Shown piece after piece: positions 12,760-31,512 of a stretch of DNA of 37,892 bases. The number at the start of each line of letters is the position of its first letter. Within the stretch, counting starts at the first letter, position 1. The notes under the pieces were generated by a model that saw only the letters and a program-made list of their open reading frames with translations, had not been told where the DNA came from and made no database searches. This DNA is from Balneolales bacterium (lineage in GTDB: Bacteria > Bacteroidota > Rhodothermia > Balneolales > Cyclonatronaceae): contig SLDG01000217.1 of assembly GCA_007125355.1 (NCBI GenBank), positions 1 through 37,892 on the forward strand, read 5' to 3'. Made by a program: the position numbers and the translations under genes.

Positions 12760-12927
12760 GGATAAACTCCGTTTAATTAATACACTTATTCAATTTGTAT
12801 AGGGTTACAGCTATTTAACTGTTATTCTGAAATTCACTAATATTCTAATATACTACATTTAAAATAGTCATTGTATTGAATTGACAAAAAAACTATTCGT
12901 TTTATTTCAACAGTTTACTATCCTGAA

Positions 12928-12995
12928 AGGCCTGTCAGGTTTTATCGGTCATTTGTAATTATCAGGAATCAATATCTTCGAAACCTGACAGGCCT
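12928..12995. repeat. Inverted repeat AGGCCTGTCAGGTTT / AAACCTGACAGGCCT downstream of ppdK
   Basis: 15-bp perfect arms at 12928-12942 and 12981-12995, directly after the ppdK stop; same core recurs at 36139-36200. Confidence 0.75.
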
Positions 12996-13002
12996 GCACT
13001 GT

Positions 13003-15660
13003 TTACCTTGCTTCTGATTCAGCCTTTTTCTTTAAACTCGCCTGCGCCGCCGCGAGTCTTGCCACGGGCACTCTGAATGGTGAGCAACTCACGTAATCGA
13101 GTCCAAGTTCGTAGAAGAAGGTAACACTGTGTGGTTCTCCACCGTGCTCGCCGCAAATACCGACTTTTAATTCAGGCTTTTGCTTACGGCCGGCTTTGGT
13201 AGCCATTTCAACCAATTGCCCGACTCCCTCTACATCAAGCACCTGGAAGGGATCGTACATCAGAATTCCCTCTTTCAGATACTCCCCGAGAAACTTGCCT
13301 GAATCATCCCGGCTGTAACCGAATGTCATCTGGGTCAAGTCGTTGGTACCAAATGAGAAAAACGCGGCATCCTTGGCAATTTTTCGGGCAACCAATGCAG
13401 CGCGTGGAATTTCTATCATGGTTCCTACGGAATATTCTACACTTTCTACTGCCCGCTCAAAAATTGCCTTTGCAACACGGTCAATCAGAATTTTTTGAAT
13501 GCGAAATTCCTGTGGCGTACCAACCAATGGAATCATTATCTCAGGGATAATGGTAACACCGCGTTTTTTCATTTCTAAGGCGGCTTCCAAAACAGCAGTA
13601 GCCTGCATTTCGGTGATTTCAGGATAGGTGATTCCCAACCGGCATCCCCTGTGGCCAAGCATGGGGTTAAACTCCTGAAGTGTTCTGATTTTCTCCTTCA
13701 AATCATTGAATCTGACTTTCAGTTTCTTGGCTACTTTTTTGATTTCATCAGTTTCATGAGGCAAAAATTCGTGTAATGGCGGGTCGAGCAAACGAATGGT
13801 AACCGGCCGGTCTCGCATCACCTCATAAATTTTAATGAAGTCCTCTTTTTGGTAAGGCAAAAGCTCATCTATAAAGTGTTTTCTTTCTTTTGCACTCGAA
13901 GAGAAAATCATTTTTCTTATGGCCTGAATTCTTTTTTCGCCAAAGAACATGTGTTCTGTACGGCAAAGGCCAATTCCCTCGGCTCCAAATTCAAGGGCTT
14001 TGGCAGCATCTTCAGGGGTGTCTGCATTTGTCCTGATTTTCATATCCCGGTATGAATCTACCCATCCCATAAAGGTAAAGTAGTCTTCATCCAATTCAGG
14101 TTTTATCACAGATCGCTCACCTTTAATTACGGTTCCATGGGTTCCGTCAATGGAAATCCATTCACCCTCGTGTATGGTGATGTTGCCATTTGTGAACATC
14201 TTTTTGTCGTAATCAATTATGATATCGTTACAACCGGCAACGCAGGGTTTTCCCCATCCGCGCGCAACAACCGCAGCATGAGAAGTCATTCCGCCACGTG
14301 AGGTCAAAATCCCTTCGGCAGCAGCCATCCCGCCTACGTCATCCGGACTCGTTTCTATCCTCACTAAAATCACCTTTTCGCCATTTCGCACATCATCTTC
14401 GGCGTCATCGGCGCTGAATACGGCTTTCCCCACAGCCGCTCCCGGAGATGCAGGTAAACCGCTGCCAATTATATCTGCTTCCTGAACCTGATCAATATCA
14501 ATCTGAGGATGTAAAAGCTGATCAAGATGATTTGGTTCCACCATTTTTAGCACAGCATCATACTCGCTGATGATATCTTCCTTAACCATATCTACAGCAA
14601 TTTTTACGGCCGCTTTACCGGTTCTTTTGCCCGAACGCGTTTGCAGAATAAAAAGCTCATCATGTTCTATGGTAAACTCAATATCCTGCATGTTTTTATA
14701 ATGTAATTCCAGCTTTTTACAAAGGCCGTCTAACTCTTCGTATGCTTTTGGCATTATATCATTGAGTTTTTGTATCTCAATGGGCGTTCTTATACCTGCC
14801 ACAACATCTTCACCCTGAGCATTGATGAGAAATTCGCCGTACAATTTATTTTCTCCGTTGGATGGATTTCGGGTAAAACAGACACCGGTCGCGCAATCAT
14901 CCCCCATATTCCCGAAAACCATAGTCTGCACGTTTACAGCTGTACCCAAAAGTCCGGTAATATGATTTATACGACGGTATGTTGCAGCTCTTGGACTATC
15001 CCACGATTCAAAAACAGCATTCACTGCAAGCTCAAGCTGCTCGTAAGGACTATCAGGAAACATATATCCCGTGGCTTTTCTGTACACAGCCTTGTAATTA
15101 TTTACCAATACTTTAAGGTCTTTAGTGGTTAATTCTGTATCATCGGCCACACCTACATCTGATTTCAGTTTTTCCATGGCATGCTCAAATTTCTCATGTG
15201 GTATGTTCATCACCACATCCCCAAACATATCTATAAACCGGCGATAGCAGTCGTAAGCAAAACGCTCATTATCTGTTTTACACGCGAGGCCTTCTACAGT
15301 GGCATCGTTTAAGCCAAGGTTCAGAACAGTATCCATCATACCCGGCATAGATACCGCCGAGCCCGACCGTACGGAAACGAGAAGCAAATTATCGGGATCG
15401 CCAAACCGGGAACCGCTTACAGACTCAAGAAAAGCAACCCCCTCTTTAATTTGAGTATTCAAGTTTTTTGGCCATGCTTTTTGATGGGTCGAATAATAAT
15501 AGCAAGCCTCCGTCGAGATAGTGAATCCCGCCGGCACCGGCAACCCAATACGGCTCATTTCAGCCAAATTTGCGCCTTTACCACCTAATAATTCGCGCAT
15601 ACTGCGGTCACCGTCGGCAGTGCCTTTTCCAAAATTATATACGTACTTACCCTTTTTCAT
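13003..15660 (-). CDS. ppdK: Pyruvate, phosphate dikinase
   Basis: '[31 protein letters not shown]', '[28 protein letters not shown]', '[21 protein letters not shown]'. ORF opens at 15699 but [11 protein letters not shown] (15660) is the likelier start. Confidence 0.96.
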
Positions 15661-15915
15661 AATATTCCTCACCAGATTTTCTTGTTTAGTTATCAGCACG
15701 AAAGAGCTTTAGAGTACTCTGTGTTTATAGAGCTCTGTGCAATTCGTGATGTTCTTCGTGAAATGTCTGTAACAGCAGGATTTATGAACCGGGGAAAATC
15801 AAAATAAATATTAAATAGCCCGTACTCCGGCCATTTTTCCAGACGCTGTTTGTAGGATACAAAAATTTTGGATAAATAGGTATAAAACTCGTATTATAAT
15901 TATAAATATTGTTCA

Positions 15916-15950: not shown

Positions 15951-16415
15951 ATGCTGTCGGACTTTGGAAGTATCCTTCTTTTTATGATTGCCGGGGTGCT
16001 ATTCGTAGCCATTGCGCTTTTTGTTTCTAAATTAGTGCGCCCGCACCGGCCCAATGCAGATAAGCTCTCGACTTATGAATGCGGGGAGGAACCCATCGGA
16101 GATGCCCGGATTCAGTTCAATAACAGGTTTTATATCATTGGCCTCATGTTCCTGATTTTTGAAGTGGAAATTCTGCTTTTATTTCCCTGGGCAATGGTTT
16201 TTCAGGATTTAGGATGGTACGCGTTTTCGGCCATGTTTGTGTTCGTGTTCCTCATTTTCATCGGTTTTATCTATGAACTGGGAAAAGGACATCTAAAATG
16301 GGATTTGCCCTCGCCCGCCGTACCGGAATATGTAGAGGGCGTTGGTGTGGTTGAGAGGGATATCCGGACTGAGGATGATGAATTTGAATCTGACGGAGGC
16401 CTTACTTTTAAATGA
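15951..16415 (+). CDS. nuoA: NADH-quinone oxidoreductase subunit A
   Basis: 'KLSTYECGEEPIGDARIQFNNRFYIIGLMFLIFEVEILLLFPWAMV'; ORF extends to 15909 but MLSDFG is the likelier start. Confidence 0.95.
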   Translation: MLSDFGSILLFMIAGVLFVAIALFVSKLVRPHRPNADKLSTYECGEEPIGDARIQFNNRFYIIGLMFLIFEVEILLLFPWAMVFQDLGWYAFSAMFVFVFLIFIGFIYELGKGHLKWDLPSPAVPEYVEGVGVVERDIRTEDDEFESDGGLTFK

Positions 16416-16430
16416 TTAATCGGATGATAT

Positions 16431-16955
16431 ATGGGTCTGCTGGATAAAAAATATCACGACAGCAACATCATAATTGTAAACCTTGAGAGTGCCCTCAACT
16501 GGGCCAGAAAATCGTCGCTTTGGTACGAGCAATTCGGGCTTGCCTGTTGCGCTATCGAAATGATGGCTACCGCTGCATCCCGGTATGATTTCGACCGGTT
16601 TGGAATTATCCCCCGCTCTTCTCCGCGTCAAGCCGATGTAATGATTGTCGCAGGAACGGTTACCATGAAAATGGCATCCCGTATCCATAAACTTTACGAG
16701 CAGATGTCGGAACCGCGCTATGTCATCAGTATGGGTTCGTGCTCAAATTGCGGCGGCCCGTATTGGGAACACGGTTACCATGTACTAAAAGGGGTTGATA
16801 AAGTAATTCCTGTAGATGTGTACGTTCCGGGTTGTCCGCCTCGCCCCGAAGCACTTCTCGAAGGCTTCCTGAAATTACAGGAGAAAATAATGAATGAAAG
16901 CCTGGTAGAAGAAAAGCCGAAAATTGGTAACACTATCGAAAAAAAAGAAACATAA
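16431..16955 (+). CDS. nuoB: NADH-quinone oxidoreductase subunit B
   Basis: '[24 protein letters not shown]', '[46 protein letters not shown]'. Confidence 0.97.
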
Positions 16956-16974
16956 CGCAAGTAGATTGCAGCCT

Positions 16975-17487
16975 ATGGCAAAGTCAACACAGGAAATTTT
17001 TGATTATCTGAAAGCGGCATACCCCGAAGTGGATTTGGTGTTGGAATCTGCCAAACTTGGCGACCCATGGATTACAATCCCTGCTGAACACTGGAAAAAA
17101 ATCGCGAAATTTTTACGGGATGATTCAGACCTGCGCTTCGACACACTAATGTGCCTGAGTGGAATCCATTATCCCGATGAAGTGTTACTTGCCATTGCCT
17201 GCCATCTGCACGCTACCGAAAAAGGCCATACTTTGGCCATAAAGGTGAAAGTGCCGGAAAGCAATCCAAACATCCCATCAGTGGAATCTATCTGGAAAAC
17301 CGCAGACTGGCACGAACGGGAAGCGTACGATATGTTTGGGATTATTTTTGATGGGCATCCCGACCTGCGCCGGATTTTATGTCCTGATGACTGGGAGGGT
17401 TTCCCCCTGCGAAAAGATTACGTGCCGCAGGAAAGCTACATGGGTATTAATACCAAATATACCGAGGTGGAGGCGAGCGATGATTGA
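16975..17487 (+). CDS. nuoC: NADH-quinone oxidoreductase subunit C
   Basis: '[43 protein letters not shown]'. Start at MAKSTQEIF chosen over the ORF start at 16924. Confidence 0.95.
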
Positions 17488-18619
17488 AATCGTGCAAAAA
17501 GGCAAATCGCGTCCGGAAATGGTCATCAATATGGGGCCTCAGCATCCATCAACGCACGGTGTACTTCGGCTTGAGGTAACGTTAGATGGCGAGCTTGTAA
17601 CACACGTAAGGCCGCATATCGGTTATCTGCACCGTTGTTTCGAAAAATACGGCGAGTCGGTTGGGGATTACGGCATGGTAACGCCCTTCACTGACCGTAT
17701 GGATTATGTCTCGGCGATGAATCAGGAACACGGCTATGTAATCGCCATGGAAAGGCTGCTTGACATCGAGGTGCCGGAACGCGTGGAGTACATCCGGGTG
17801 ATTATGGCCGAGCTTCAACGAATTGCCAGCCATTTACTTGCCGTCGGTACATTCGGACTCGACCTCGGAGCATTCACTCCATTTCTATACGTATTTACCG
17901 AAAGGGAGAAAATCCTCGATATCTTCGAAAAAAGTTCCGGCGCGCGTCTGCTCTACAATTACATGTGCATAGGCGGATTAATGCGGGATGTTGATGACGA
18001 TTTCAAAAAAGACACAGAGGAATTTGTACGCACATTCAGGCCAAAAATTACAGAACTACAAAACCTGCTTACCTACAATTCCATTTTCATTAAACGTACT
18101 GCACATATTGGTGTGCTGCCCCCAAAAGTGGCGTTGAATTATGCTGCCTCCGGACCGGTATTGCGAGGTTCGGGCGTAAAATGGGACCTCCGCAAAAACA
18201 ACCCCTACTCCATTTACGACCGTTTCGATTTCGACATCCCCGTTGGAGAAGGTGAAGTCGGTACACTCGGCGATTGCTGGGACCGCTACATTGTGCGGGT
18301 ACTTGAAATGGAAGAAAGCTGCAAAATAATTGAACAAGCTCTCGAAGCCATGCCCGACGAAGGCGATGTTCAGCAAAACGTACCAAAGCGCGTCCGTACC
18401 AAGCCGGGCGAAATTTATGCCCGAACCGAAACTCCACGCGGCGAACTCGGGTATTATATCATCAGCGACACATCCGCCAAACCCTACCGTATTAAAGCAC
18501 GGGCACCGAGTTTTGTGAACCTGAGCCTGCTCCCTGCCATCTCGCGCGGAAGCCTGATGTCGGATTTGGTAGCCATAGTGGGCAGCATAGACATTGTACT
18601 TGGGGAGGTTGACCGATGA
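17480..18619 (+). CDS. nuoD: NADH-quinone oxidoreductase subunit D
   Basis: '[25 protein letters not shown]', '[29 protein letters not shown]'; start at 17480 overlaps the nuoC stop. Confidence 0.97.
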
Positions 18620-19629
18620 CATGGCTCGAATCTTTACCATTGGCTGTTTTTGTGATGATTCCCCTTGTCATCATCCTCATTTACGCTCTGTTCGCCATTT
18701 GGATGGAGCGCAAGGTTGCGGGATTTATTCAGGACCGTCTTGGTCCGATGCGTGTCGGAGGCTGGCACGGATGGGCACAGTCGTTTGCTGATTTGCTCAA
18801 ACTCATCCAAAAAGAGGATATCATTCCCGCAGAGGCAAGTAAATTCCTGTTTCGTTTCGCTCCTTTCCTCATGTTCGCGGCTTCTTATGCTGCTTTCGCC
18901 GTGATTCCATTCAGCAGCGCGTACATGGGAAGCAATATAGATATCGGTGTTTTTTACCTGCTTGCAATTACATCGCTGCTAACAATCAGTGTGATAATGG
19001 CGGGATGGGCGTCGAATAACAAATGGTCGTTGTTGGGCGCCATGCGTACGGCCGCGCAGATGGTCAGCTACGAAGTTCCAACTATAATGGCAGTACTTTC
19101 AGTGATTATTGTGGCCGGTTCGCTCAATCTTATGACCGTTACCGAAATGCAGTCGGGCAACGATACACTTGGATTCCTGCCCAATTGGCTCATTTTCCAG
19201 AACCCGTTTTTGTTGGTGGCATTCGTGATTTTCTTTATTTCCATTTTAGCTGAATCGCACAGGGTTCCGTTTGACCTTCCTGAGTCGGAATCGGAACTGG
19301 TAGCCGGATTCCAGACCGAATATTCCGGTATGCGCTGGGCTATGTTCATGCTCGCGGAATATGCCGACATGCTGTTGCTTTCATTGCTTGGCGCGGTGCT
19401 GTTTTTTGGGGGATGGAACAGTCCCTTTGGCGGATTCATGGATGGCCCGATTTGGGGATTCTTCTGGTTCATGTTCAAAGGCATGATATTGGTTTTTGTA
19501 ATGATGTGGATTCGTTGGACACTCCCCCGATACCGGGTTGATCAACTCATGTATTTATGCTGGAGTATTCTTATCCCACTGTCATTCATCAATTTTGTAC
19601 TGATTGCATTGTGGGAGATGCTTTTTTAA
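18616..19629 (+). CDS. nuoH: NADH-quinone oxidoreductase subunit H
   Basis: '[41 protein letters not shown]', '[40 protein letters not shown]'. Confidence 0.97.
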
Positions 19630-19647: not shown

Positions 19648-20823
19648 ATGGTACATAGTTTTAAACAAGGCTGGCAGACATTAAAGAGCATCTTTACTGG
19701 GATGGGGATAACCATCCGCCATTTTTTCGGTCCTTCGGTAACATTACAGTATCCGGATGAAAGAGATGTACTACCAAAACTTGCCCGCAGCAAACTGTTT
19801 GTAAATATTGATGATTGCATTGGATGCAATCTGTGCGCCAGAGCATGCCCCGTTAACTGTATTGACATAGAAACGGTTAAAGCCGGCGCGGACGTAGATT
19901 TGGGAAAGACCTCAAATGGCAGCCAAAAACGTTTATGGATTTCCCGTTTCGTCATTGATATGGCCAAGTGTATGTACTGCGATTTATGTACATATCCGTG
20001 TCCGACCGATTGTATTTATATGGTTCAGGAATATGAATATTCTGACTTTAACCGCGATAATCTGGTCTATAAATTCAGCAACCTTACCCCGGAAAAAATT
20101 GCTGAAGTGAAAGAAACGGCAAGGATTGAAGCTGAAGAAGCTGAGAAAAAGAAAGCCGAAGAAGCCGCAGCCAAAGCTGCCAGGGCGAGTAAAGCTTCTG
20201 ATTCACGGCCGTCATCTGTACCAGGTGCCGCAAGAGGTATCCCGGGATCAGCAAAAGGAATCCCCGGGAAAGCTAAAGGAATTCCGGGCGCATCAAAAGG
20301 GGTGCCGGGCAAGGCTCAAGGTATTCCCGGTGCTGCGAAAAGCATCCCTGGAAAAGCTAAAGGGATACCGGGTGCGGCGAAAGGAGTACCCGGCAAAGCA
20401 AAGAGTATCCCCGGAACAGCGAAAGGAGTACCGGGTGCCGCTAAAAGTGTCCCAACTGCGGCCAAAGGCGTACCGGGTAAAGCAAAGGGTGTTCCGGGTG
20501 CGGCGAAAGGAGTTCCCGGCAAAGCCAAAAGCGTTCCAACCGCGGCTAAGAACGTGCCAGGTAAAGCAAAGAGTATTCCCGGAACTGCAAAGGGAGTGCC
20601 CGGGAAGGCTAAAAGTGTTCCAACTTCAGCCAAAAGCGTGCCCGGGAAGGCAAAGAGTGTCCCCGGTACAGCTAAGAGCGTACCAGGAAAAGCAAAAGGG
20701 GTTCCCGGCAAAGCAAAAGGAGTTCCGGGTGGCGGAGCTGCCAAGGTTCCGGGCAAATCTACTGCAAAACAAGTACCGGGCAAAAAACCGCCAAAAGAAA
20801 ATAAAGACAACAATACCGACTGA
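19648..20823 (+). CDS. nuoI: NADH-quinone oxidoreductase subunit I with long basic heptapeptide-repeat C-terminal tail
   Basis: Two 4Fe-4S motifs 'CIGCNLCARACPVNCID' and 'CMYCDLCTYPCPTDCIY'; charged helix 'EVKETARIEAEEAEKKKAEEAAAKAARASKA'; then about 25 heptads such as KGVPGKA. Confidence 0.95.
   Translation: MVHSFKQGWQTLKSIFTGMGITIRHFFGPSVTLQYPDERDVLPKLARSKLFVNIDDCIGCNLCARACPVNCIDIETVKAGADVDLGKTSNGSQKRLWISRFVIDMAKCMYCDLCTYPCPTDCIYMVQEYEYSDFNRDNLVYKFSNLTPEKIAEVKETARIEAEEAEKKKAEEAAAKAARASKASDSRPSSVPGAARGIPGSAKGIPGKAKGIPGASKGVPGKAQGIPGAAKSIPGKAKGIPGAAKGVPGKAKSIPGTAKGVPGAAKSVPTAAKGVPGKAKGVPGAAKGVPGKAKSVPTAAKNVPGKAKSIPGTAKGVPGKAKSVPTSAKSVPGKAKSVPGTAKSVPGKAKGVPGKAKGVPGGGAAKVPGKSTAKQVPGKKPPKENKDNNTD
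20212..20736 (+). repeat. 21-bp period coding tandem repeat (about 25 heptapeptides) in nuoI
   Basis: SSVPGAA RGIPGSA KGIPGKA ... KGVPGKA KGVPGGG read in the nuoI frame; 25 x 21 bp = 525 bp, degenerate at the nucleotide level. Confidence 0.95.
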
Positions 20824-21326
20824 TGGAATTAACAACTCTTTTATTTTACTTCTTTTCACTGCTCACTATTGGCAGTGCCATTTTCATGGTGTTCAGTAAA
20901 AACATCGTTCATGCCGCATTCGCGTTGATGTTTACCCTTCTTGGCGTAGCAGCACTTTATGTGTTGCTGTTTGCAGATTTCATCGCGGCAACCCAAATTT
21001 TGGTCTATGTCGGGGGAATTCTCATCCTCATCCTTTTCGGCGTGATGCTCACCACAAAGGGCTTCACCGACAACCTGAAAACACTGACCACAAACCTGCG
21101 TCCTGTTTCTGTTGTCATGACCCTCGTTGCGGCCGGAATGATATATGTACTGCTTACCACAACATGGCCTGTAGCAGAAATAGCAGAACCCGAAGGTACC
21201 ATCACCGGGCTTGGCACACTCTTGTTGAAAGAATACATCCTGCCGTTTCAGGTAACCGGGGTACTGTTGCTCGTCGCCATTATTGGCGCGCTGCTGATGG
21301 CAACCAAAGTTAAACATCAACAATAA
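20823..21326 (+). CDS. nuoJ: NADH-quinone oxidoreductase subunit J
   Basis: 'NIVHAAFALMFTLLGVAALYVLLFADFIAATQILVYVGGILILILFGVML'; overlaps the nuoI stop. Confidence 0.96.
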   Translation: MELTTLLFYFFSLLTIGSAIFMVFSKNIVHAAFALMFTLLGVAALYVLLFADFIAATQILVYVGGILILILFGVMLTTKGFTDNLKTLTTNLRPVSVVMTLVAAGMIYVLLTTTWPVAEIAEPEGTITGLGTLLLKEYILPFQVTGVLLLVAIIGALLMATKVKHQQ

Positions 21327-21341
21327 AAAGCGCTCAGAATC

Positions 21342-21677
21342 ATGGAAAATGAACTTATTCAATGGCTGTCGCAACCGGGGTTAACCCACTACCTGATGAT
21401 CGGGGCGTTATTGTTTTGCATCGGTATCACACTTGTCCTCACACGAAGGAACGTGATTATGATTCTAATGGGGATTGAGCTCATCCTGAATTCCGTAAAC
21501 CTGAATTTTATCGCGTTCAGCCGGTTCAGTGTCATTACACTCGACGGCCACCTGACCGCTTTATTCCTGATCATACTTGCCGCCGCCGAAGCCGCAGTTG
21601 CACTCGCCATTGTCCTCAATATCTATAATCGTTTCAAAACCATAGATATCGACGAAATAAGCTTATTGAAAGGGTAA
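21342..21677 (+). CDS. nuoK: NADH-quinone oxidoreductase subunit K
   Basis: 'RRNVIMILMGIELILNSVNLNFIAFSRF', 'LFLIILAAAEAAVALAIVLNIYNRFKTIDID'. Confidence 0.96.
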   Translation: MENELIQWLSQPGLTHYLMIGALLFCIGITLVLTRRNVIMILMGIELILNSVNLNFIAFSRFSVITLDGHLTALFLIILAAAEAAVALAIVLNIYNRFKTIDIDEISLLKG

Positions 21678-21683
21678 TCGCGT

Positions 21684-23744
21684 ATGGAGCAAAGCATGTT
21701 ACATCTTTCCCTTCTCATTCTTTTCATCCCGCTTGCCGGGTTCCTGATTCTTGTATTCTTCGGCAAAAAACTGCCCCGACAGGGCGATTGGCTCGGAACC
21801 TCCCTCATTGGAATAACCCTGCTTATGGCGCTTTATATGCTTATAAGTAAAATTTCTTCCATGTCCACCGAGACACTCACCTATTCGGCTTCATGGGTTA
21901 TTCTGAGAAATTCATCTTTTGGCGCCACGAGTATTGACCTTGGGTTTATGATAGACAATCTCACAGTTGTGATGCTTGTTGTGGTGATGCTCGTCAGTTT
22001 TCTGGTGCATCTGTTTTCTATCGGTTACATGAAGGGGGATGCCCGCTACTCCCGCTATTTTGCGTATTTGGGATTGTTCACATTTTCAATGACCGGCATC
22101 GTGCTGACCCACAACCTGTTGATGATGTATATCTTCTGGGAGTTGGTTGGCGTAAGCTCCTATCTGTTAATTGGATTCTGGTACGAGAAAAAATCAGCCA
22201 CTAACGCGGCATCCAAAGCGTTTATCGTTAACCGGATTGGGGATGCGGGGATGTTTATCGGGATCATGATTCTGTTCATCCACTTCTCCACATTTACATT
22301 TGAACCGATTTTCAGCGGACTTGCCGCCGGTGACCTTCCCTTCCAAAGCACGGCTTGGTTAACGGCAGCCGGAATTCTCATTTTCTGTGGTGCAGTCGGT
22401 AAATCCGCGCAGTTCCCGCTTCATGTGTGGCTGCCCGATGCGATGGAAGGCCCGACGCCCGTGAGCGCGCTCATCCATGCGGCTACCATGGTCGCTGCCG
22501 GTGTGTATCTGATTGCACGAATGTTCCCGATGCTCACTGCCGAGGCGCTGATTGTTATCGCGTACATTGGCGCCATCACAGCTCTTATTGCAGCTACCAT
22601 AGCGCTTACGCAATACGATATTAAAAAAGTACTGGCGTATTCTACCATTAGTCAGCTTGGCTTTATGGTTATGGCGCTCGGGCTTGGAGCGTTCGCCGCC
22701 GGATTCATGCACCTGGTTACCCACGCCGCTTTCAAAGCCGGCCTATTCCTCGGCGCCGGAAGTGTAATCTTTGCCATGCACAACGCCCTGCACAAGAAAA
22801 ACGACCATCATACCGATGCGCAGGATATCCGGAACATGGGCGGACTCAAAAGCAGGATGCCCGTCACCTATTGGACATTCCTCATTTTTACGCTTGCCAT
22901 TGCCGGTGTTCCGCTGACTTCCGGTTTCCTCAGTAAAGACGAAATTCTCGCAGGCACATTGGCATTCAGCTCGCTGAACGGACATTATCTGCTCCCAATC
23001 ATCGCGTTCACGGTTGCCGGAATGACCGCTTTCTACATGTTCCGTTTGTTCATTCTCACTTTCCACGGCAATCACGCCGACGAAAGCCGGATTTCCGGTT
23101 TGATGGAATCGCCACTGACCATGACCATCCCGCTGCTGATTCTGGCAGGGCTTTCTACATTCGTTTTTTACAGTTTCAATCCGCTCGGTGCATCGGGTGG
23201 ATGGTTCTTCAGCGCCATTGAGCGTCCGGCGAGCATGATTCCCGAAGCCCTGCAACCTGCAAGTGCCGAAATCTTTAATCAGGCAGTAAAAGCGCTGCAC
23301 ACTCCGGCGCTGATCCTGTCTGTTCTGATAGCCGGTGCCGGTATTTTTGGGGCAGTTTGGGTTTATGAATGGAAAAAGTCAAGCGCGGATGTCATCTCCC
23401 AAAATTTCGGTGCTTTATACAAGGGCGCTTTCAACAAATGGTATTTCGATGAAATGTACCAATACGTTTTTGTCGGCGGTACATTCATCCTCACAAAAAT
23501 ATTACGATGGTTCGATGAAAAGATTATCGACGGAATCGTAAACGGAGCGGCAACACTTTCCGAAAGATTCTCTGTTATGAACCGCTGGTTTGACGAGAAT
23601 ATCATTGACGGCCTGGTGAATTTCACCGCATGGTTCATGGGAATTTTAGGATTTGTACTGCGCAGACTCCAAACAGGAAAAATTCAACACTACCTGGCCT
23701 TCGTGGTTCTGGGGGTACTCGTTTTTTACTTCATATTTGTCTGA
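21684..23744 (+). CDS. nuoL: NADH-quinone oxidoreductase subunit L
   Basis: 'YFAYLGLFTFSMTGIVLTHNLLMMYIFWELVGVSSYLLIGFW', 'QFPLHVWLPDAMEGPTPVSALIHAATMVAAGVYL'. Confidence 0.97.
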   Translation: MEQSMLHLSLLILFIPLAGFLILVFFGKKLPRQGDWLGTSLIGITLLMALYMLISKISSMSTETLTYSASWVILRNSSFGATSIDLGFMIDNLTVVMLVVVMLVSFLVHLFSIGYMKGDARYSRYFAYLGLFTFSMTGIVLTHNLLMMYIFWELVGVSSYLLIGFWYEKKSATNAASKAFIVNRIGDAGMFIGIMILFIHFSTFTFEPIFSGLAAGDLPFQSTAWLTAAGILIFCGAVGKSAQFPLHVWLPDAMEGPTPVSALIHAATMVAAGVYLIARMFPMLTAEALIVIAYIGAITALIAATIALTQYDIKKVLAYSTISQLGFMVMALGLGAFAAGFMHLVTHAAFKAGLFLGAGSVIFAMHNALHKKNDHHTDAQDIRNMGGLKSRMPVTYWTFLIFTLAIAGVPLTSGFLSKDEILAGTLAFSSLNGHYLLPIIAFTVAGMTAFYMFRLFILTFHGNHADESRISGLMESPLTMTIPLLILAGLSTFVFYSFNPLGASGGWFFSAIERPASMIPEALQPASAEIFNQAVKALHTPALILSVLIAGAGIFGAVWVYEWKKSSADVISQNFGALYKGAFNKWYFDEMYQYVFVGGTFILTKILRWFDEKIIDGIVNGAATLSERFSVMNRWFDENIIDGLVNFTAWFMGILGFVLRRLQTGKIQHYLAFVVLGVLVFYFIFV

Positions 23745-23787
23745 TAATTCAATGTTTGTAAGAATTACTTTAATGTAGGTTTATGAT

Positions 23788-25374
23788 ATGGAACTTCAAT
23801 TTTTAGGAATAGGCATACTCACCTGGATACTCTTTCTGCCGATTGCAGGCCTTATTATCATCCTGCTGATTCCGGGTGACAAATTAAAGGCTATTCGGAT
23901 TACCGCAACGGCCATTACCGGCATACAGGTTATTCTTGCTGCCGTAATTTTCAGGCATTTCGACCGTGCTATTGAAGGCATAAACTCCATCGAAGGCTTT
24001 CAGTTTGTAGAAAAATACAGGTGGATTACCGTCGAAGCCGTGCCGTGGTTTGGTCGCATAGAAATCAACTACTTCCTCGGAATTGACGGCCTGAGTGTGC
24101 TTATGGTCATCCTAACCGCGTTGATAGGTTTCATTGGCGCGATTTCATCATGGACAATCAAAAAACAGGTAAAGGGATATTTCGCCCTGTACATGCTGCT
24201 TGTTACTGGTATGATGGGCGTTTTCGTAGCCCTCGACTTTTTCCTCTTTTTTATTTTTTGGGAAGTAATGCTCCTGCCCATGTATTTCCTCATTGGCATC
24301 TGGGGCGGCCCGAGAAGAGAATACGCTGCCATCAAATTTTTCCTCTACACATTTGTCGGCGGTATTTTGATGATGCTTGTGATGCTTGCACTATATTTCA
24401 GTGTGGCCGTGCCCGATCCCGAAACCGGCGAAATGTATCACACCTTCAACATCCTGCACATGATGAATCCCGCCTACTATGTCGAGGGTTCCATACTTGC
24501 CGGCGTAGATACCACATGGCGCTATGTCGCGTGGATGGCATTGTTCATAAATTTCGCCATCAAAATCCCGCTGTTCCCGTTCCACACCTGGCTGCCCGAT
24601 GCCCACGTGGAAGCCCCGACCCCTATCAGTGTGATTCTGGCAGGCGTACTTTTGAAACTCGGAACCTACGGATTGTTGCGAATCAGCTTCCCGATTTTCC
24701 CGGACGCGACAATGTACTTCATGATTTTCATGGCCGTCTTAGGAATGATAAGCATTATTTACGGAGCCTTCTGTGCGCTTGCTCAGGATGATTTCAAAAA
24801 GCTGATTGCCTATTCTTCCATCAGTCACATGGGAATTGTGGTCATTGGTATTGCCGCGCTAAATACGCAGGGTATGGTCGGCGGCGTGCTGCAAATGTTC
24901 AATCACGGGATTATTACAGCCGTGCTTTTCCTGATGGTCGGCGTGGTGTACGACCGCACCGGCAAACGCGGGCTGTACGATTTTGGCGGCTTGGCGAATC
25001 AAATGCCAAAATACACCGGCATCGCCATGATAGGTTTATTCGCCGCACTTGGCCTGCCGGGATTAAATGGCTTTGTGAGTGAGCTGTTCTCTTTCCTTGG
25101 CGCATTCGAAGCTTACCGCTGGATTGCCATAGTTTCTGTCTTTGGCATCATCATAACAGCCGGTTACATTTTATGGACACTCCAACGTGTTTTCCTTGGC
25201 AACACACCGGAACACCTTACAAGCCTGAAAGACCTCACCACCCGCGAAATGGTCTGCTTCGTGCCACTGATTATTCTCATAATCCTGCTTGGTGTATATC
25301 CTGCACCCGCCATTGAGCTTATGAATACCTCGCTGAGCTATCTAACTCAAATCGTGACCGTTCCGGCGTACTAA
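23788..25374 (+). CDS. nuoM: NADH-quinone oxidoreductase subunit M
   Basis: 'FFLFFIFWEVMLLPMYFLIGIWGG', 'PLFPFHTWLPDAHVEAPTPISVILAGVLLKLGTYGLLR', 'LIAYSSISHMGIVVIG'. Confidence 0.97.
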   Translation: MELQFLGIGILTWILFLPIAGLIIILLIPGDKLKAIRITATAITGIQVILAAVIFRHFDRAIEGINSIEGFQFVEKYRWITVEAVPWFGRIEINYFLGIDGLSVLMVILTALIGFIGAISSWTIKKQVKGYFALYMLLVTGMMGVFVALDFFLFFIFWEVMLLPMYFLIGIWGGPRREYAAIKFFLYTFVGGILMMLVMLALYFSVAVPDPETGEMYHTFNILHMMNPAYYVEGSILAGVDTTWRYVAWMALFINFAIKIPLFPFHTWLPDAHVEAPTPISVILAGVLLKLGTYGLLRISFPIFPDATMYFMIFMAVLGMISIIYGAFCALAQDDFKKLIAYSSISHMGIVVIGIAALNTQGMVGGVLQMFNHGIITAVLFLMVGVVYDRTGKRGLYDFGGLANQMPKYTGIAMIGLFAALGLPGLNGFVSELFSFLGAFEAYRWIAIVSVFGIIITAGYILWTLQRVFLGNTPEHLTSLKDLTTREMVCFVPLIILIILLGVYPAPAIELMNTSLSYLTQIVTVPAY

Positions 25375-25426
25375 GGTGAAAAAATATGACAGATTACAAG
25401 ATAAATTTAAATAAGATCTTAATTAC

Positions 25427-26911
25427 ATGAGCGAACATGTTCTGAATAGCATCGGATTATTTGTGCCTGAAATCATTCTGGTGGCATCGCTGTGTATTAT
25501 CATTGTGGCTGATCTCCTCCTGAAAAAACGCACACATGCAGGTGGATGGATCCTGCTGGCTTCTCTTGTGCTCTGCTTTTTCGCATTCAGTGCGCAATCG
25601 GGCATAAATACCTCTGCTTTTTTCGCGATGATTGCGGTTGATCCGTTTTCGGTGTTTTTTAAAGTAATTCTGGTGATTTCGGGGATTTTTATAGTGTTGT
25701 TTTCTATGCAGAATAAAGAGCTAATCCCCTATAAAAACCGCATTGGCGAATATTACATGCTTATTGCCGGCATGATGCTGGGCATGTTCCTTATGGTCAG
25801 TTCCACAAACTTGCTGATGATGTACCTCGCTTTTGAAATGACGAGTATCTGCTCGTATGTGCTTGTGGGATTCACCAAAAAATCCATTCGGTCGGCGGAG
25901 TCATCCATCAAGTACATCATTTACGGTTCGGTAAGTTCGGGGATTATGATTTACGGGATGTCGCTGATCTACGGGATGTCAGGCAGCCTGAATATTTTTG
26001 AAATCGGCGCCGCACTTTCAGGTTTGGAATCGGCGCCCATTTTTTCGATGGCCGTATTGATGATTACCGCGGGGATTGGATTTAAGATCGCGCTCGTGCC
26101 GTTCCATTTCTGGGCTCCTGATGTGTACGAAGGCGCTCCTATGGCCATCACCGCGCTTCTTGCCGTAACATCTAAAATCGCTGCCGTTGCCATGCTCATC
26201 AGGCTGTTCCGGGTTTCATTTACCGGTGTGGATGCCACAGGCATGATGGCCATCATCCCCGAAGGAATCCGCTGGGATATGATGCTTGCCGTAATGGCCG
26301 CCGCCGCCATGATTCTCGGTAATCTCGCAGCGCTTTGGCAGGATAACATCAAACGGATGCTTGCTTATTCGAGCATTGCCCATGCCGGTTATATTATTAT
26401 GGGCGTAGTGGTCCTCACCGATCAGGGCATTTCGGCTGTGATGCTCTACGCGTTTATGTACCTTTTTATGAATCTCGGCACGTTTTACATGGCTATGCTG
26501 TACGCCAACAAGTTCAGCACGGAATCCATAGAAGGCTACAAGGGTATAGGCTACCGAGCGCCATTTACCGCCGTTGCACTGACCATCTTTTTGGTGTCGC
26601 TTACCGGACTACCACCAACTGCAGGATTCATAGCCAAACTGTATATCTTCGGTGCTGCCATAAACGCCGGCTGGATTTGGCTGGTACTTGTTGCCGGTGT
26701 AATGACTATCGTATCGCTGTTTTACTACATCAGGGTCGCCCGAAATATGTTTTTGTACAAACCCGAAGGTGAAACCGAACCGGTGCGTTTTGATAATTTC
26801 ACAACAGCCATAGTTCTGTTACTGCTGACTCCTGTTCTTGTGCTCGGCGTTTACTTTACGCCTGTTCTTGAATTCATAAAACATTCGCTTGTCATGTTTG
26901 GAGTGCAATAA
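25427..26911 (+). CDS. nuoN: NADH-quinone oxidoreductase subunit N
   Basis: 'LLMMYLAFEMTSICSYVLVGFTKKSIRSAESSIKYIIYGSVSSGIMIYGMSL', 'VPFHFWAPDVYEGAPMAITALLAVTSKIAA', 'RMLAYSSIAHAGYIIMG'. Confidence 0.97.
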   Translation: MSEHVLNSIGLFVPEIILVASLCIIIVADLLLKKRTHAGGWILLASLVLCFFAFSAQSGINTSAFFAMIAVDPFSVFFKVILVISGIFIVLFSMQNKELIPYKNRIGEYYMLIAGMMLGMFLMVSSTNLLMMYLAFEMTSICSYVLVGFTKKSIRSAESSIKYIIYGSVSSGIMIYGMSLIYGMSGSLNIFEIGAALSGLESAPIFSMAVLMITAGIGFKIALVPFHFWAPDVYEGAPMAITALLAVTSKIAAVAMLIRLFRVSFTGVDATGMMAIIPEGIRWDMMLAVMAAAAMILGNLAALWQDNIKRMLAYSSIAHAGYIIMGVVVLTDQGISAVMLYAFMYLFMNLGTFYMAMLYANKFSTESIEGYKGIGYRAPFTAVALTIFLVSLTGLPPTAGFIAKLYIFGAAINAGWIWLVLVAGVMTIVSLFYYIRVARNMFLYKPEGETEPVRFDNFTTAIVLLLLTPVLVLGVYFTPVLEFIKHSLVMFGVQ

Positions 26912-26933: not shown

Positions 26934-27356
26934 ATGAAAATTGAACAAATAAAGGATTTATTCTCTCAAGGAGAAGAAAATCTCAAAGGCGCTGAAAACG
27001 AACTTTATCGTCCATCTTCAGATGTGGTTAACTATGCCGTTTGTGTGAATGGAAGGAAAGCCATCCATTATTTTATGGCTTGTTTATATCTCTATTATTG
27101 TGATGAAAACAATGATACCCCTGCAGAAGACCCGGTTATTGAAGAAATGCTGGAGTACTGCAAACAGCACAATAAAACGCTGAAAGAGATGGATTTTTCA
27201 CAGCTCAACTGTATGGGTAAAGATGTTCGGAAAACCGATGATTTTTATTGTTGTAACGATGTAAAAACGGTGTCATCCTGTACAAAGCTGGCAAGCGATG
27301 TCCGCACAATTTTTGTGAATGAAGCCGGTAACGGCAATACTGATTTTTTGAACTAA
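26934..27356 (+). CDS. Cysteine-rich HEPN-like protein
   Basis: 140 aa, helical, 'SSDVVNYAVCVNGRKAIHYFMACLYLYY' resembles the HEPN core; 8 Cys; 22 bp after nuoN on the same strand. Confidence 0.55.
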   Translation: MKIEQIKDLFSQGEENLKGAENELYRPSSDVVNYAVCVNGRKAIHYFMACLYLYYCDENNDTPAEDPVIEEMLEYCKQHNKTLKEMDFSQLNCMGKDVRKTDDFYCCNDVKTVSSCTKLASDVRTIFVNEAGNGNTDFLN

Positions 27357-27453: not shown

Positions 27454-27909
27454 ATGTTTTCTACATCATGCCATTACGCGTTACAGGCTATGATTTTTAT
27501 AGCCTTAAAATCTGACGGAAACAAAAATGTGGACCTCACAAGTATTTCCACAGAATTAGATATTCCCAAACATTTCCTTAGTAAAATCCTTCAGATGCTG
27601 GTAAAGCACCGGCTACTTAATTCAATGAAAGGCCCCACGGGCGGCTTCAGCCTGAAAACACCGGCAGATAAAATTACGCTTATCAAAGTCGTTGAAATTG
27701 TAGATGGGCTTGATGTCTTCAACCGCTGCGGAATTGGATTTAAAGAGTGCGATGACCAAAACCCGTGTCCGATTCATTTCGAATTTTGTCAGGTCAGGGA
27801 ACAAATTCAGGAGGTATTCGAGTCCAAAACCCTCGAACAACTAAAACAAGACATCCTCGACGGCAAAAGCATCATAAGCCCCGATTTGACGGAGAAATTA
27901 GCGAAGTAA
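27454..27909 (+). CDS. Rrf2-family transcriptional regulator with probable Fe-S cysteine triad
   Basis: 'HYALQAMIFIALKSDGN...ISTELDIPKHFLSKILQMLVKHRLLNSMKGPTGGFSL' wHTH plus 'CGIGFKECDDQNPC' (C-x6-C-x5-C). Confidence 0.92.
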   Translation: MFSTSCHYALQAMIFIALKSDGNKNVDLTSISTELDIPKHFLSKILQMLVKHRLLNSMKGPTGGFSLKTPADKITLIKVVEIVDGLDVFNRCGIGFKECDDQNPCPIHFEFCQVREQIQEVFESKTLEQLKQDILDGKSIISPDLTEKLAK

Positions 27910-28229: not shown

Positions 28230-29258
28230 CTACTTCACTTCCCACGTATTTCCGCTCATGAATAAATCAGAGGTGGATTTGTAGGGGGTGTATTTTTTTG
28301 CTGCTTCTATGGCATTATAGACCTGCGCATCATAACTGACATCCTCTACCTGTCTTAAAATCCCCGTGGCGACGGGAAATTCAGGTAGCTGCATTCTTGC
28401 TAATGCCAGATGAAATGGCGAGGATTCTTCGTGCATATCATGCTTTAGAAATGCTTCATCAGGAATGGATTGCCCGAATTTTTCTTTTTTCAGTTTCATG
28501 CCATTAAGCACCAAACCGTACTCGTCATCTTTTCCGAAACGAATGGTTTCTCCGTGCGACAGCACAACCTGATTTTCGTCTTTGGTTTCTTTGGATGTAA
28601 TTTGCTCGTGAATCCCATCTGTGTAAATCACACAATTCTGCAGCACTTCAATGACGGACGTCCCCTTGTGTTTATAGGCGGCGTGCATGGTTTCTTCAAG
28701 CATTTTGTAATCTTTATCAGGCACACGGGCAAAGAAAGATGCGCCGCACCCGATGGCGGCTTCACCGATATTAAATGGACGTTCATATACACCGCCGGGA
28801 GCCGTCTTGGTTTTCAAACCTTCAGGAGATGTGGGCGAAGACTGCCCTTTGGTCATCCCGTAAATTCTGTTGTTAAATATGATGATATTCAGGTCGATAT
28901 TTCGGCGAACGGCGTGAATAAAGTGGTTCCCGCCGATGGCCATACAGTCGCCGTCTCCGGTGGCAACCCATACGCTCAGACCGGGATTTGCCAGTTTCAC
29001 CCCCGATGCCGTTGCAATAGCACGGCCGTGAATCGAATGGATACCGTAGGTTTCCATGTAATATGTAATCCTCGACGAGCAGCCAATCCCGGAAACCAGC
29101 GTGAAGTCTTCTTTCCTGACTCCAATATCAGCAAAAACCTTCCGCATGGTGTTCAAAATCATGAAATCTCCACAACCGGGACACCAACGAACATGCTGAT
29201 CGGTCATAAAATCTTTGCGATCGTACGCAACGGTATGAGGTTTAACTTCAGCCTGCAT
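28230..29258 (-). CDS. korB: 2-oxoacid (probably 2-oxoglutarate):ferredoxin oxidoreductase subunit beta
   Basis: 'HVRWCPGCGDFMILNTMRKVFADIG', TPP-binding 'WVATGDGDCMAIGGNHFIHAVRRNIDLNIIIFNNRIYGMTKGQSSPTS'. Confidence 0.93.
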   Translation of the reverse strand: MQAEVKPHTVAYDRKDFMTDQHVRWCPGCGDFMILNTMRKVFADIGVRKEDFTLVSGIGCSSRITYYMETYGIHSIHGRAIATASGVKLANPGLSVWVATGDGDCMAIGGNHFIHAVRRNIDLNIIIFNNRIYGMTKGQSSPTSPEGLKTKTAPGGVYERPFNIGEAAIGCGASFFARVPDKDYKMLEETMHAAYKHKGTSVIEVLQNCVIYTDGIHEQITSKETKDENQVVLSHGETIRFGKDDEYGLVLNGMKLKKEKFGQSIPDEAFLKHDMHEESSPFHLALARMQLPEFPVATGILRQVEDVSYDAQVYNAIEAAKKYTPYKSTSDLFMSGNTWEVK

Positions 29259-31110
29259 ATTCTGATTCCTCCAGTGTTTCCCTGATTTTTTGTTTAATTT
29301 CGTCGACGAAGAAAGGCTGTCCCTGAATTTTGTTGTAATTCCTGATTTTCAAGCCGGGATATTGTGTCTGCAAATAGGCCGCGAACTGACCATTATTTTG
29401 TTCACAAACGAGCAGTTCATCAAACCGGCTGAATAATTCGCCTGTGTTTTCAGGAAGCGGTTTAATATAATTGAAGTGGGTGAATCCCATGGAATCGTGT
29501 CCCTCTTCAAGCAGTTCTGTAAAGGCTGTTTTAGCCGAGCCATACGTACTGCCCCAGCAAACTATAAGCAATTTGCCTGAGTCCGGGCCATAGACATTTT
29601 GTTTTGGCAGTTTCTTAGCAACGCGCGCTATTTTTTCCTCTCGCAGCTTTACCATCAGCTCGTGGTTCAGCGGCTCATAGGTTAGATTACCTGAATTTTC
29701 TTTTTTCTCGAGTCCACCGATACGATGTTCAAATCTGGCCTGACCCGGATATTTCCAGAAACGGGCTAAATACTCAGCCTCTCTTTGATAAGGCTGCCAA
29801 TCTTCCGGGGCTCCTTTGTATTCCGGAATGTTGATATCAGGAAGTTCTTGCGGCGGGGTGATGCGCCACGGACTGTTTCCGCTCGACAGATAGGAATCTG
29901 TAAGAAGAATCACCGGAGTGGAATGCTCCATGGCGAGTTTGCATGCTTCGTAGGCAAATTCAAAGCAATCGTCAGGTGTGGATGCCGCAAGTACAATCAA
30001 GGGAGCTTCGCCATGGCGGCCATATAAGGCCTGAAACAAATCGGCCTGTTCGGTTTTTGTCGGTAATCCGGTAGAGGGACCCGCACGTTGCACGTTCACC
30101 ATTACCAACGGAAGTTCAGCAATTACAGCCAAACCCATGGCTTCTGATTTTAGAGATGCGCCCGGCCCGGATGTGGTTGTCAGAGACAAATTCCCCGCAA
30201 AAGCCGCACCGATGGAAGCACAAACCGCGGCGATTTCATCCTCTGCCTGAAACACTACCACGCCGAGGTCTTTTCGTGCCGATAGCTCATGTAAAATTTC
30301 TGACGCCGGCGTAATGGGATAAGAACACAGCGACAACGTTTTGCCGGTTTTTTCTGCAGCCGCCAAACACCCCCAAGCTACAGCTGTATTTCCGTCGATA
30401 TTTCGGTACATCCCCTTCCTAAGTCTTGCCGGGGGGATGTGCATAGAAAGCGCGTTGATTTCTGTGGATTCGGCGAAACTGTAGCCCGCTTGCAGCGCTT
30501 TGGAGTTCGCCTTGGCTATTTCCGGCTTTTTGGCGAATTTCTTTTCAAAATACGCAACTGTTGATTCGAGTGGCCTGCTGAACAGGTGATAAACCAGCCC
30601 GAGCGCAAACATATTACGGCAACGCATTATCGTTTTTGTATCCAAGCCCATGTCTTTGAGGGCTTCTTTGGTCATAAACGCAATGGGGGCTTTTATCACT
30701 CTGAAATCTGAAAGCGTATCATCTTCAAGCGGATTATTTTCATATTCTGCCTTTTTGAGATTCTTTCTGTTGAATTCATCGGCATCCACAATAATCATGG
30801 CGCCCGGCTTCAGGAATTTCAGGTTTGCGGCAAGTGCGGCCGGATTCATAGCCACCAAAAGATCGGTTTTATCCCCGGGTGTGTAAATCTCTGTTCCCCC
30901 GAATTGCACCTGATAACTTGAAACACCGCTTATCGTACCCTGTGGCGCGCGGATTTCAGCCGGGAAATCCGGGACGGTTGTTAAATCATTACCGGCCAGG
31001 CCTGAACTCTGCGAAAACAAACTGCCCGTAAGCTGCATGCCGTCGCCTGAGTCGCCTGAGAATCTGACCACCACCTTATTGACCGGCGTGGAAATTGTAG
31101 GTTCAGCCAT
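29248..31110 (-). CDS. korA: 2-oxoacid:ferredoxin oxidoreductase subunit alpha (gamma-alpha fusion)
   Basis: 'VRFSGDSGDGMQLTGSLFSQSS' gamma domain; 'SYPITPASEILHELSARKDLGVVVFQAEDEIAAVCASIGAAFAGNLSLTTTSGPGASLKSEAMGLAV'; 11-bp overlap with korB. Confidence 0.93.
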   Translation of the reverse strand: MAEPTISTPVNKVVVRFSGDSGDGMQLTGSLFSQSSGLAGNDLTTVPDFPAEIRAPQGTISGVSSYQVQFGGTEIYTPGDKTDLLVAMNPAALAANLKFLKPGAMIIVDADEFNRKNLKKAEYENNPLEDDTLSDFRVIKAPIAFMTKEALKDMGLDTKTIMRCRNMFALGLVYHLFSRPLESTVAYFEKKFAKKPEIAKANSKALQAGYSFAESTEINALSMHIPPARLRKGMYRNIDGNTAVAWGCLAAAEKTGKTLSLCSYPITPASEILHELSARKDLGVVVFQAEDEIAAVCASIGAAFAGNLSLTTTSGPGASLKSEAMGLAVIAELPLVMVNVQRAGPSTGLPTKTEQADLFQALYGRHGEAPLIVLAASTPDDCFEFAYEACKLAMEHSTPVILLTDSYLSSGNSPWRITPPQELPDINIPEYKGAPEDWQPYQREAEYLARFWKYPGQARFEHRIGGLEKKENSGNLTYEPLNHELMVKLREEKIARVAKKLPKQNVYGPDSGKLLIVCWGSTYGSAKTAFTELLEEGHDSMGFTHFNYIKPLPENTGELFSRFDELLVCEQNNGQFAAYLQTQYPGLKIRNYNKIQGQPFFVDEIKQKIRETLEESEYAG

Positions 31111-31161: not shown

Positions 31162-31512
31162 TTAGCCGTGCAGAAATTCACGTTTAGCAAGAAGAATTTC
31201 TTCGTCTTCGTCATGATCTGCATGTGTTATTATGCAATCATCAACCGGACAAAAAGACACACATTGTTCCTCATCGTGTTCACCCTTACAACCCGTACAC
31301 TTTTCCGGCACGATGAAATAGAATTCATCTGAGAGCGCCTCTTGTGGTTCTTCGGCGTCTACTTCCCTGCCATCATATAAGGCAATTAGCCCTTCCAAAG
31401 AAGTACCTTCGGCCATAGACCATTCGGCTCCGGGTTCGTAGATTGCCTGATTAGGACATTCAGGTTCACATGCACCGCAGTTGATGCAGGTATCCGTGAT
31501 AAATAGTGCCAT
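31162..31512 (-). CDS. Acidic 2[4Fe-4S]-type ferredoxin
   Basis: 'CINCGACEPECPNQAIYEPG' and 'CTGCKGEHDEEQCVSFCPVDDC'; 29 Asp/Glu vs 5 Lys/Arg in 116 aa; directly upstream of korAB. Confidence 0.92.
   Translation of the reverse strand: MALFITDTCINCGACEPECPNQAIYEPGAEWSMAEGTSLEGLIALYDGREVDAEEPQEALSDEFYFIVPEKCTGCKGEHDEEQCVSFCPVDDCIITHADHDEDEEILLAKREFLHG

Follow-up and report, generated by a model that had tools for sequence, protein, structure and literature searches.

A polycationic heptad-repeat tail on NuoI of a Balneolales complex I lacking NuoEFG, and a putative ferredoxin donor encoded nearby

In the 37,892-nucleotide stretch of Balneolales DNA analysed here (hereafter the window), the complex I subunit NuoI continues beyond its iron-sulfur core into a tail with two predicted parts: a stalk helix some 37 residues long, then a flexible arm of roughly 200, which includes 25 tandem heptads. 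Our best reading is that this tail is an optional, disordered polycationic arm that would concentrate ferredoxin, helping at most in the capture of the electron donor. It is a new variation on a known enzyme, the complex I without NuoEFG, for which ferredoxin has already been suggested in print, and the pairing of the complex with a 2-oxoacid:ferredoxin oxidoreductase (KorAB) and its ferredoxin is probably a more useful result than the tail itself. That pairing is nearly one-to-one in Balneolales and supplies a concrete, testable candidate donor for the 11-subunit complex I of Bacteroidota. In addition, orthologues that naturally have or lack the tail alongside the same ferredoxin offer a ready comparison for the ability of a disordered charged arm to speed respiratory electron input.

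Table 1. Positions and supporting evidence for the features of the window
Feature	Position	Strand	Basis
nuoA, nuoB, nuoC, nuoD, nuoH; no nuoE/F/G between D and H	16056..19629	+	ORFs; Pfam NuoB, NuoD; synteny in 58 clusters
nuoI open reading frame	19648..20823	+	391 aa, without frameshift
NuoI core, residues 1-145, two 4Fe-4S motifs (clusters N6a/N6b), basic hairpin KTSNGSQKRLW (87-97)	19648..20082	+	TIGR01971; alignment with NdhI and Nqo9
K/E/A-rich stalk helix, residues 146-188 (predicted helix 148-184)	20083..20211	+	AlphaFold2; segment common in clade
Heptad array: 25 units of K-[GS]-[VI]-P-[GT]-x-A with 33 K, 1 R and no acidic residue	20212..20736	+	pN/pS 0.34; pLDDT about 40
Degenerate basic tail end: two further irregular VPG units, KKPPKENKDNNTD, short end, stop codon overlapping nuoJ	20737..20823	+	Sequence
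nuoJ, nuoK, nuoL, nuoM, nuoN	20823..26911	+	ORFs, synteny
140-aa protein with no confident Pfam assignment; its gene follows nuoN in many relatives	26934..27356	+	Synteny
Rrf2-family regulator, kept downstream of nuo cluster	27454..27909	+	PF02082, 101 bits; synteny
korB and korA, 2-oxoacid:ferredoxin oxidoreductase	28230..31110	-	TIGR03710, TIGR02177
Acidic 2[4Fe-4S] ferredoxin, Alvin/YfhL type, probable electron donor	31162..31512	-	NF033683, 95 bits, over cut-off; structure matches

An accessory complex I and its candidate donor

The window cluster, nuoABCDHIJKLMN, encodes 11 subunits and lacks nuoE, nuoF and nuoG, in agreement with the initial annotation, which had described a complex without NuoEFG. 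Its NuoI belongs to a widespread clade, for which 58 complete clusters were recovered (from Balneolota, Ignavibacteria, Calditrichota and other Bacteroidota); none has any of the three genes in its vicinity. As in other 11-subunit complexes I, NuoB has the cysteine pair of cluster N2, and NuoI carries two copies of the CxxCxxC...CP motif. The NuoI core scores 107 bits against the TIGR01971 model, just below the cut-off of 113, and is nevertheless assigned as NuoI because the gene order confirms it; it can also be aligned with NdhI and Nqo9 from solved complexes. In that alignment QKRL of the basic hairpin falls on KKRL of chloroplast NdhI and is a putative ferredoxin contact. The same genome holds a canonical nuoABCDEFGH set on another contig (L152) as well as a second, unextended NuoI of 222 aa (L153). 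Given this separate canonical enzyme, the window complex plausibly uses another donor, and its gene content plausibly marks it as an accessory, NADH-independent 11-subunit complex I. A comparison of the charge of the other Nuo subunits gave no clear signal, the values for NuoD, whose start codon was placed too far upstream, having been set aside.

The candidate donor is encoded next to korAB. KorA matches TIGR03710 at 616 bits, above the cut-off, whereas the best model for KorB, TIGR02177, scores 239 bits against a cut-off of 262. The ferredoxin itself is a protein of 116 aa with a net charge of -24 and a pI of 4.05, and shares with its structural matches among the Alvin/YfhL-type ferredoxins (PDB 3exy, 1blu, 2zvs and 1rgv) a two-cluster fold and an acidic C-terminal extension, differing from them by an insert of about 35 residues between the cluster motifs. 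A close form of the window NuoI is present in 31 of the 133 genomes of the order that were compared. The ferredoxin is matched in 30 of these 31, whereas only 2 of the 102 without that form have a match (Fisher p 2.7e-26, with kinship ignored). The nuoI and ferredoxin genes are linked at 16 loci, at distances of 8.5-14 kb, and a genome with two nuoI copies (G102) has one linked ferredoxin for each. The sole exception among the 31 is a tail-bearing genome, G018, which gave no ferredoxin match; the contig with its korA stops within that gene, just short of where the ferredoxin gene would be expected. We infer that this ferredoxin is the redox partner of the complex, an assignment that the genomic data support well, and that electrons probably flow from ferredoxin into the complex. 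The earlier proposal that electrons come from ferredoxin instead of NADH is strengthened by genomic pairing and by the adjacency of KorAB, which make it a likely donor.

Comparable 11-subunit, NuoEFG-less enzymes have been described from Desulfitobacterium hafniense (PMC11238625), Bacteroides fragilis (NUO; PMC7002350) and Melioribacter roseus (PMC3534657), and share the gene set nuoABCDHIJKLMN with the window. In the excerpts available of these papers, reduced ferredoxin is suggested as the donor for D. hafniense (PMC11238625) and Melioribacter (PMC3534657), the donor of the B. fragilis enzyme is described as unknown (PMC7002350), and such a tail goes unmentioned for all three; by the same excerpts, the window differs in its basic heptad tail on NuoI and in its specific, linked KorAB/ferredoxin pair. 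The cyanobacterial and chloroplast NDH-1 complexes (PMC7021789, PMC6992706) also resemble it, in their 11 core subunits, electron entry at N6a of NdhI/NuoI, a basic NdhI hairpin and an acidic ferredoxin, which docks on Lys86/89/91 of NdhI (PMC7021789; see also PMC6992706). However, NDH-1 combines a 2Fe-2S ferredoxin with the OPS subunits (NdhS, V and O), whereas the window probably combines a 2[4Fe-4S] ferredoxin with charge placed on the NuoI tail.

In several relatives the nuo cluster has a pair of such ferredoxins in its neighbourhood. At two loci (L094 and L096) the second lies directly after the Rrf2 gene, is 50-57% identical and is less acidic, with net charges of -9 and -6; second ferredoxin matches also occur in G066, G068, G080, G102, G107, G109 and G110. 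The 140-aa protein is recognisable at 31-44% identity in many relatives, where its gene is kept 3' of nuoN, and it is possibly an accessory subunit or assembly factor. Genes for citrate synthase and pyruvate, phosphate dikinase (window 11464-15699) adjoin the nuo and korAB genes, and at one other locus (L087) the order is ppdK-fdx-korA-korB-citZ-nuoA, a proximity that suggests a tie to 2-oxoacid metabolism. A gene for a 526-aa protein with a sub-threshold DUF3987 match (window 9574-11154) lies between that for citrate synthase and a histidine kinase gene that adjoins flagellar genes.

Composition, predicted shape and selective constraint of the tail

The nuoI reading frame continues, as the initial annotation had described, past two 4Fe-4S motifs and through an Ala/Lys/Glu-rich helix into 25 uninterrupted heptads (residues 189-363, 175 aa), and our count of 33 K, one R and no D or E bears out the 34 Lys/Arg and absence of acidic residues noted for that block. 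Acid-free composition is confined to the heptads; the whole post-core segment, residues 146-391, contains 51 K/R and 13 D/E, for a net charge of +38. The motif [VI]P[GT] occurs 27 times in the tail, 25 of them at an exact spacing of seven residues (residues 191-359), while 2000 shuffles of the tail gave a mean count of 0.8 and a longest spacing-7 run of 2. Tandem Repeats Finder reports periods of 21, 42, 63 and 84 bp with DNA matches of just 57-75%, indicating that the repeat is far better kept at the protein than at the DNA level. An AlphaFold2 model of NuoI, built on a 33-sequence alignment and of modest overall confidence (mean pLDDT 57.7), places the linking helix at about residues 148-184 (pLDDT 83-87) and no secondary structure beyond it (pLDDT about 40). 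Charge-hydropathy analysis likewise puts residues 146-391 on the disordered side, so that two predictions agree with the earlier view of the tail as probably disordered. Disorder and a charge opposite to that of the partner, two properties expected of a fly-casting arm, are both predicted for the tail.

Searches of the genome and its relatives returned no strong in-frame match to the tail beyond the NuoI proteins of the window and G018, the remaining matches being off-frame, antisense or weak, and no relative of the tail emerged among solved structures. A match to the Pfam model LbR_Ice_bind lies exactly at the cut-off and was taken as compositional. A literature search, partial in its journal coverage, turned up no description of a NuoI tail of this sort.

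Short-read metagenome assemblies break in repeats, and one of the contigs discussed below (G009) ends inside its tail, so an assembly artefact or a mis-read frame has to be considered as the source of the heptads. We find this scarcely credible. The heptad copies differ at most third positions, which makes them assemblable, and when compared with each other they give a pS of 0.76 (synonymous sites saturated), a pN of 0.26 and a pN/pS of 0.34, against pN/pS values of 0.99 and 3.2 for the two other forward frames of the same DNA. Diversity between heptads at the three codon positions is 0.31/0.20/0.68, and the tails of two further genomes, G018 and G009, give pN/pS values of 0.20 and 0.40. The nuoI stop codon (TGA, 20821-20823) overlaps the nuoJ ATG at 20823, which fits a genuine gene end, and G018 has a complete version of the protein, of about 355 aa. 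With in-frame constraint, the overlap of stop and start codons and kindred VPG tails in two other genomes, we conclude from the sequence data that the tail is real and that the heptads of the window are selectively kept at the protein level.

Variation of NuoI tails among relatives

Across 103 NuoI proteins of the accessory type, the segment that follows the last cluster motif ranges from 43 to 321 residues; its first part is conserved and the rest is mostly of low complexity. A K/E-rich stretch after the core is common to tails of the clade. The net charge of the segment averages -2.9 (SD 3.8) when the three VPG-tail sequences are left out, compared with +36 in the window and +30 in G018. In charge the window tail lies at the far end of a feature that varies among these proteins, and it does not stand alone. 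Basic VPG-repeat tails are found in three genomes: that of the window, with a unit of 7 residues; G018 (Balneolales MAG CSBr16_48), where [VI]PG recurs at alternating intervals of 6 and 8 residues; and G009 (T1Sed10_100), whose array of 8-residue units is cut by the contig end. Net charge per residue is 0.19, 0.20 and 0.14, respectively. In a tree of NuoD, NuoH and the NuoI core the three form one clade (support 100/98). Each lineage has rebuilt the repeat unit but retained [VI]PG turns and positive charge, which suggests that bulk physical properties, and not a precise motif, are under selection. Of the 31 genomes that encode this complex, the other 28 have NuoI tails that are near-neutral or acidic. 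A cultivated relative, Rhodohalobacter sulfatireducens (L091), also lacks the tail. The expectation, in its strong form, that presence of the tail would correlate with absence of nuoEFG did not survive this comparison, and we reject a basic tail as a defining trait of complex I without EFG: the loss of EFG is clade-wide and the basic tail is rare.

Such variety could mean that the clade accepts almost any disordered C-terminal extension, with the basic heptads an expanded variant of little function. The very different compositions of the 103 segments agree with this, as do the confinement of the basic tail to one clade and the existence of other repeat types, K-[LIV]-[PS]-P-M-[MV]-A-A-K-[LM]-A-A-K-K-A in L169-L172 and S-[EG]-E-S-P-E-P-S-R in L167. 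Nevertheless, we think it unlikely, as residues are conserved across heptads whose synonymous sites are saturated. Drift should also have scrambled the arrays of G018 and G009, yet these are still basic VPG repeats, with their units rebuilt.

The rest of the family in which G018 is placed has a different NuoI (about 60% identical; L154/L164), yet the nuo operon of G018 groups with that of the window, which suggests that the tail-bearing operon has moved by horizontal transfer.

Possible functions of the arm

We propose a model in which KorAB would reduce ferredoxin and the 11-subunit complex would oxidise it, with electrons passing to N6a and N6b in NuoI, then to N2 in NuoB and finally to quinone, coupled to ion pumping. 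In one small clade, NuoI would have gained a helix-mounted, disordered polycationic arm of Pro/Gly turns, which could raise the local concentration of polyanionic ferredoxin, and possibly also of the reductase, around the N6a docking site through non-specific, multivalent electrostatics. Once captured by the arm, ferredoxin would dock on the folded basic hairpin. Such an accessory role in recruiting ferredoxin is the single most likely function of the tail, although we put it forward tentatively; the case for an action on ferredoxin consists of charge complementarity and an analogy with NdhS. In the available excerpt of PMC13249358, a fly-casting role is proposed, citing Schuller 2019, for the Lys-rich, flexible C-terminus of NdhS, which lies near the ferredoxin entry and to that extent resembles the window tail. 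That C-terminus is, however, short and belongs to a separate subunit, whereas the window has a tandem repeat of about 200 residues on a core Fe-S subunit, and we treat the likeness as an analogy. The precedent is also weakened by the distance of about 25 A between NdhS and bound ferredoxin in cyanobacterial Fd-NDH-1L (PMC7021789).

The fly-casting recruiter of the initial annotation is favoured by opposite charges (+38 on the tail, -24 on the ferredoxin), predicted disorder, constraint on the heptads at the protein level and the ferredoxin partnership; it fares less well against the 28 of 31 genomes that lack a basic tail. Ferredoxin acidity is not linked to the tail either, with net charges of -24 and -22 in tail-bearing genomes and -17 to -24 among tail-less orthologues, and comparison of these orthologous ferredoxins revealed no coevolution. 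Tail-less relatives retain the basic hairpin around QKRL, and docking would accordingly appear to need no tail, and no compensating loss of the hairpin was seen in the tail-bearing genomes. The failure to find a ferredoxin in G018, on a korA contig that ends prematurely, also counts against recruitment.

Polycations bind lipid, RNA and polyphosphate too, and the arm might instead be a localisation tether: by holding RNA, polyphosphate or the anionic head groups of membrane lipids, it would position or cluster the complex with no recruitment of a donor. Its charge density of +0.19 per residue, disorder and acid-free heptads make this physico-chemically reasonable, and a tether would work without coevolution with a particular partner, which fits the unchanged ferredoxin charge. 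We nonetheless judge it improbable, since the sequence carries no sign of lipid binding, the array has neither an amphipathic helix nor a hydrophobic anchor, and the analyses run gave no tie to nucleic acid. The Lys density of the tail, about 19%, is moreover well under that of linker-histone tails.

The regular [VI]PG turns, small residues and Lys, maintained in three genomes at different unit lengths, are also reminiscent of elastin-like polypeptides, which are tandem VPGXG repeats. Together with the strongly opposite charge of the ferredoxin, they could be taken to indicate a complex-coacervate scaffold in which Lys-bearing repeats phase-separate with ferredoxin and KorAB into a condensed electron-transfer hub. 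This is quite improbable in our estimation: the tail lacks aromatic residues, salt would screen coacervation, and the repeat is not the exact VPGXG pentad. With [VI]PG spaced at seven residues and Lys in most units, the tail was rejected as an elastin-like polypeptide proper.

Salt also bears on recruitment of ferredoxin, our preferred reading, as a salt-in cytoplasm would screen the tail. The nearest named relatives are mostly MAGs, with isolate codes that we take to denote soda-lake sediments. A soda-lake sediment MAG data set of such a kind has been described (PMC6146748). The computed pI values of citrate synthase, PpdK, KorA, KorB and Rrf2 are about 5.5-6.4, and because most of the window's soluble proteins for which values were computed are not extremely acidic, a salt-in cytoplasm is not indicated, though the argument is a weak one.

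More broadly, a core Fe-S subunit may have acquired a long polycationic arm of tandem repeats by which ferredoxin is captured or condensed, with electron input tuned by repeat number and charge and not by a docking subunit, and differently built low-complexity NuoI tails across Bacteroidota (for example K-[LIV]-[PS]-P-M-[MV]-A-A-K) may act alike; as a whole this generalisation is possible but doubtful. In other Bacteroidota (L169-L172, L168 and L182) the NuoI tail contains two to four copies of K-[LIVM]-[PS]-P-M-[MV]-A-A-K-[LM]-A, a pattern that resembles a short linear binding motif in repeated form.
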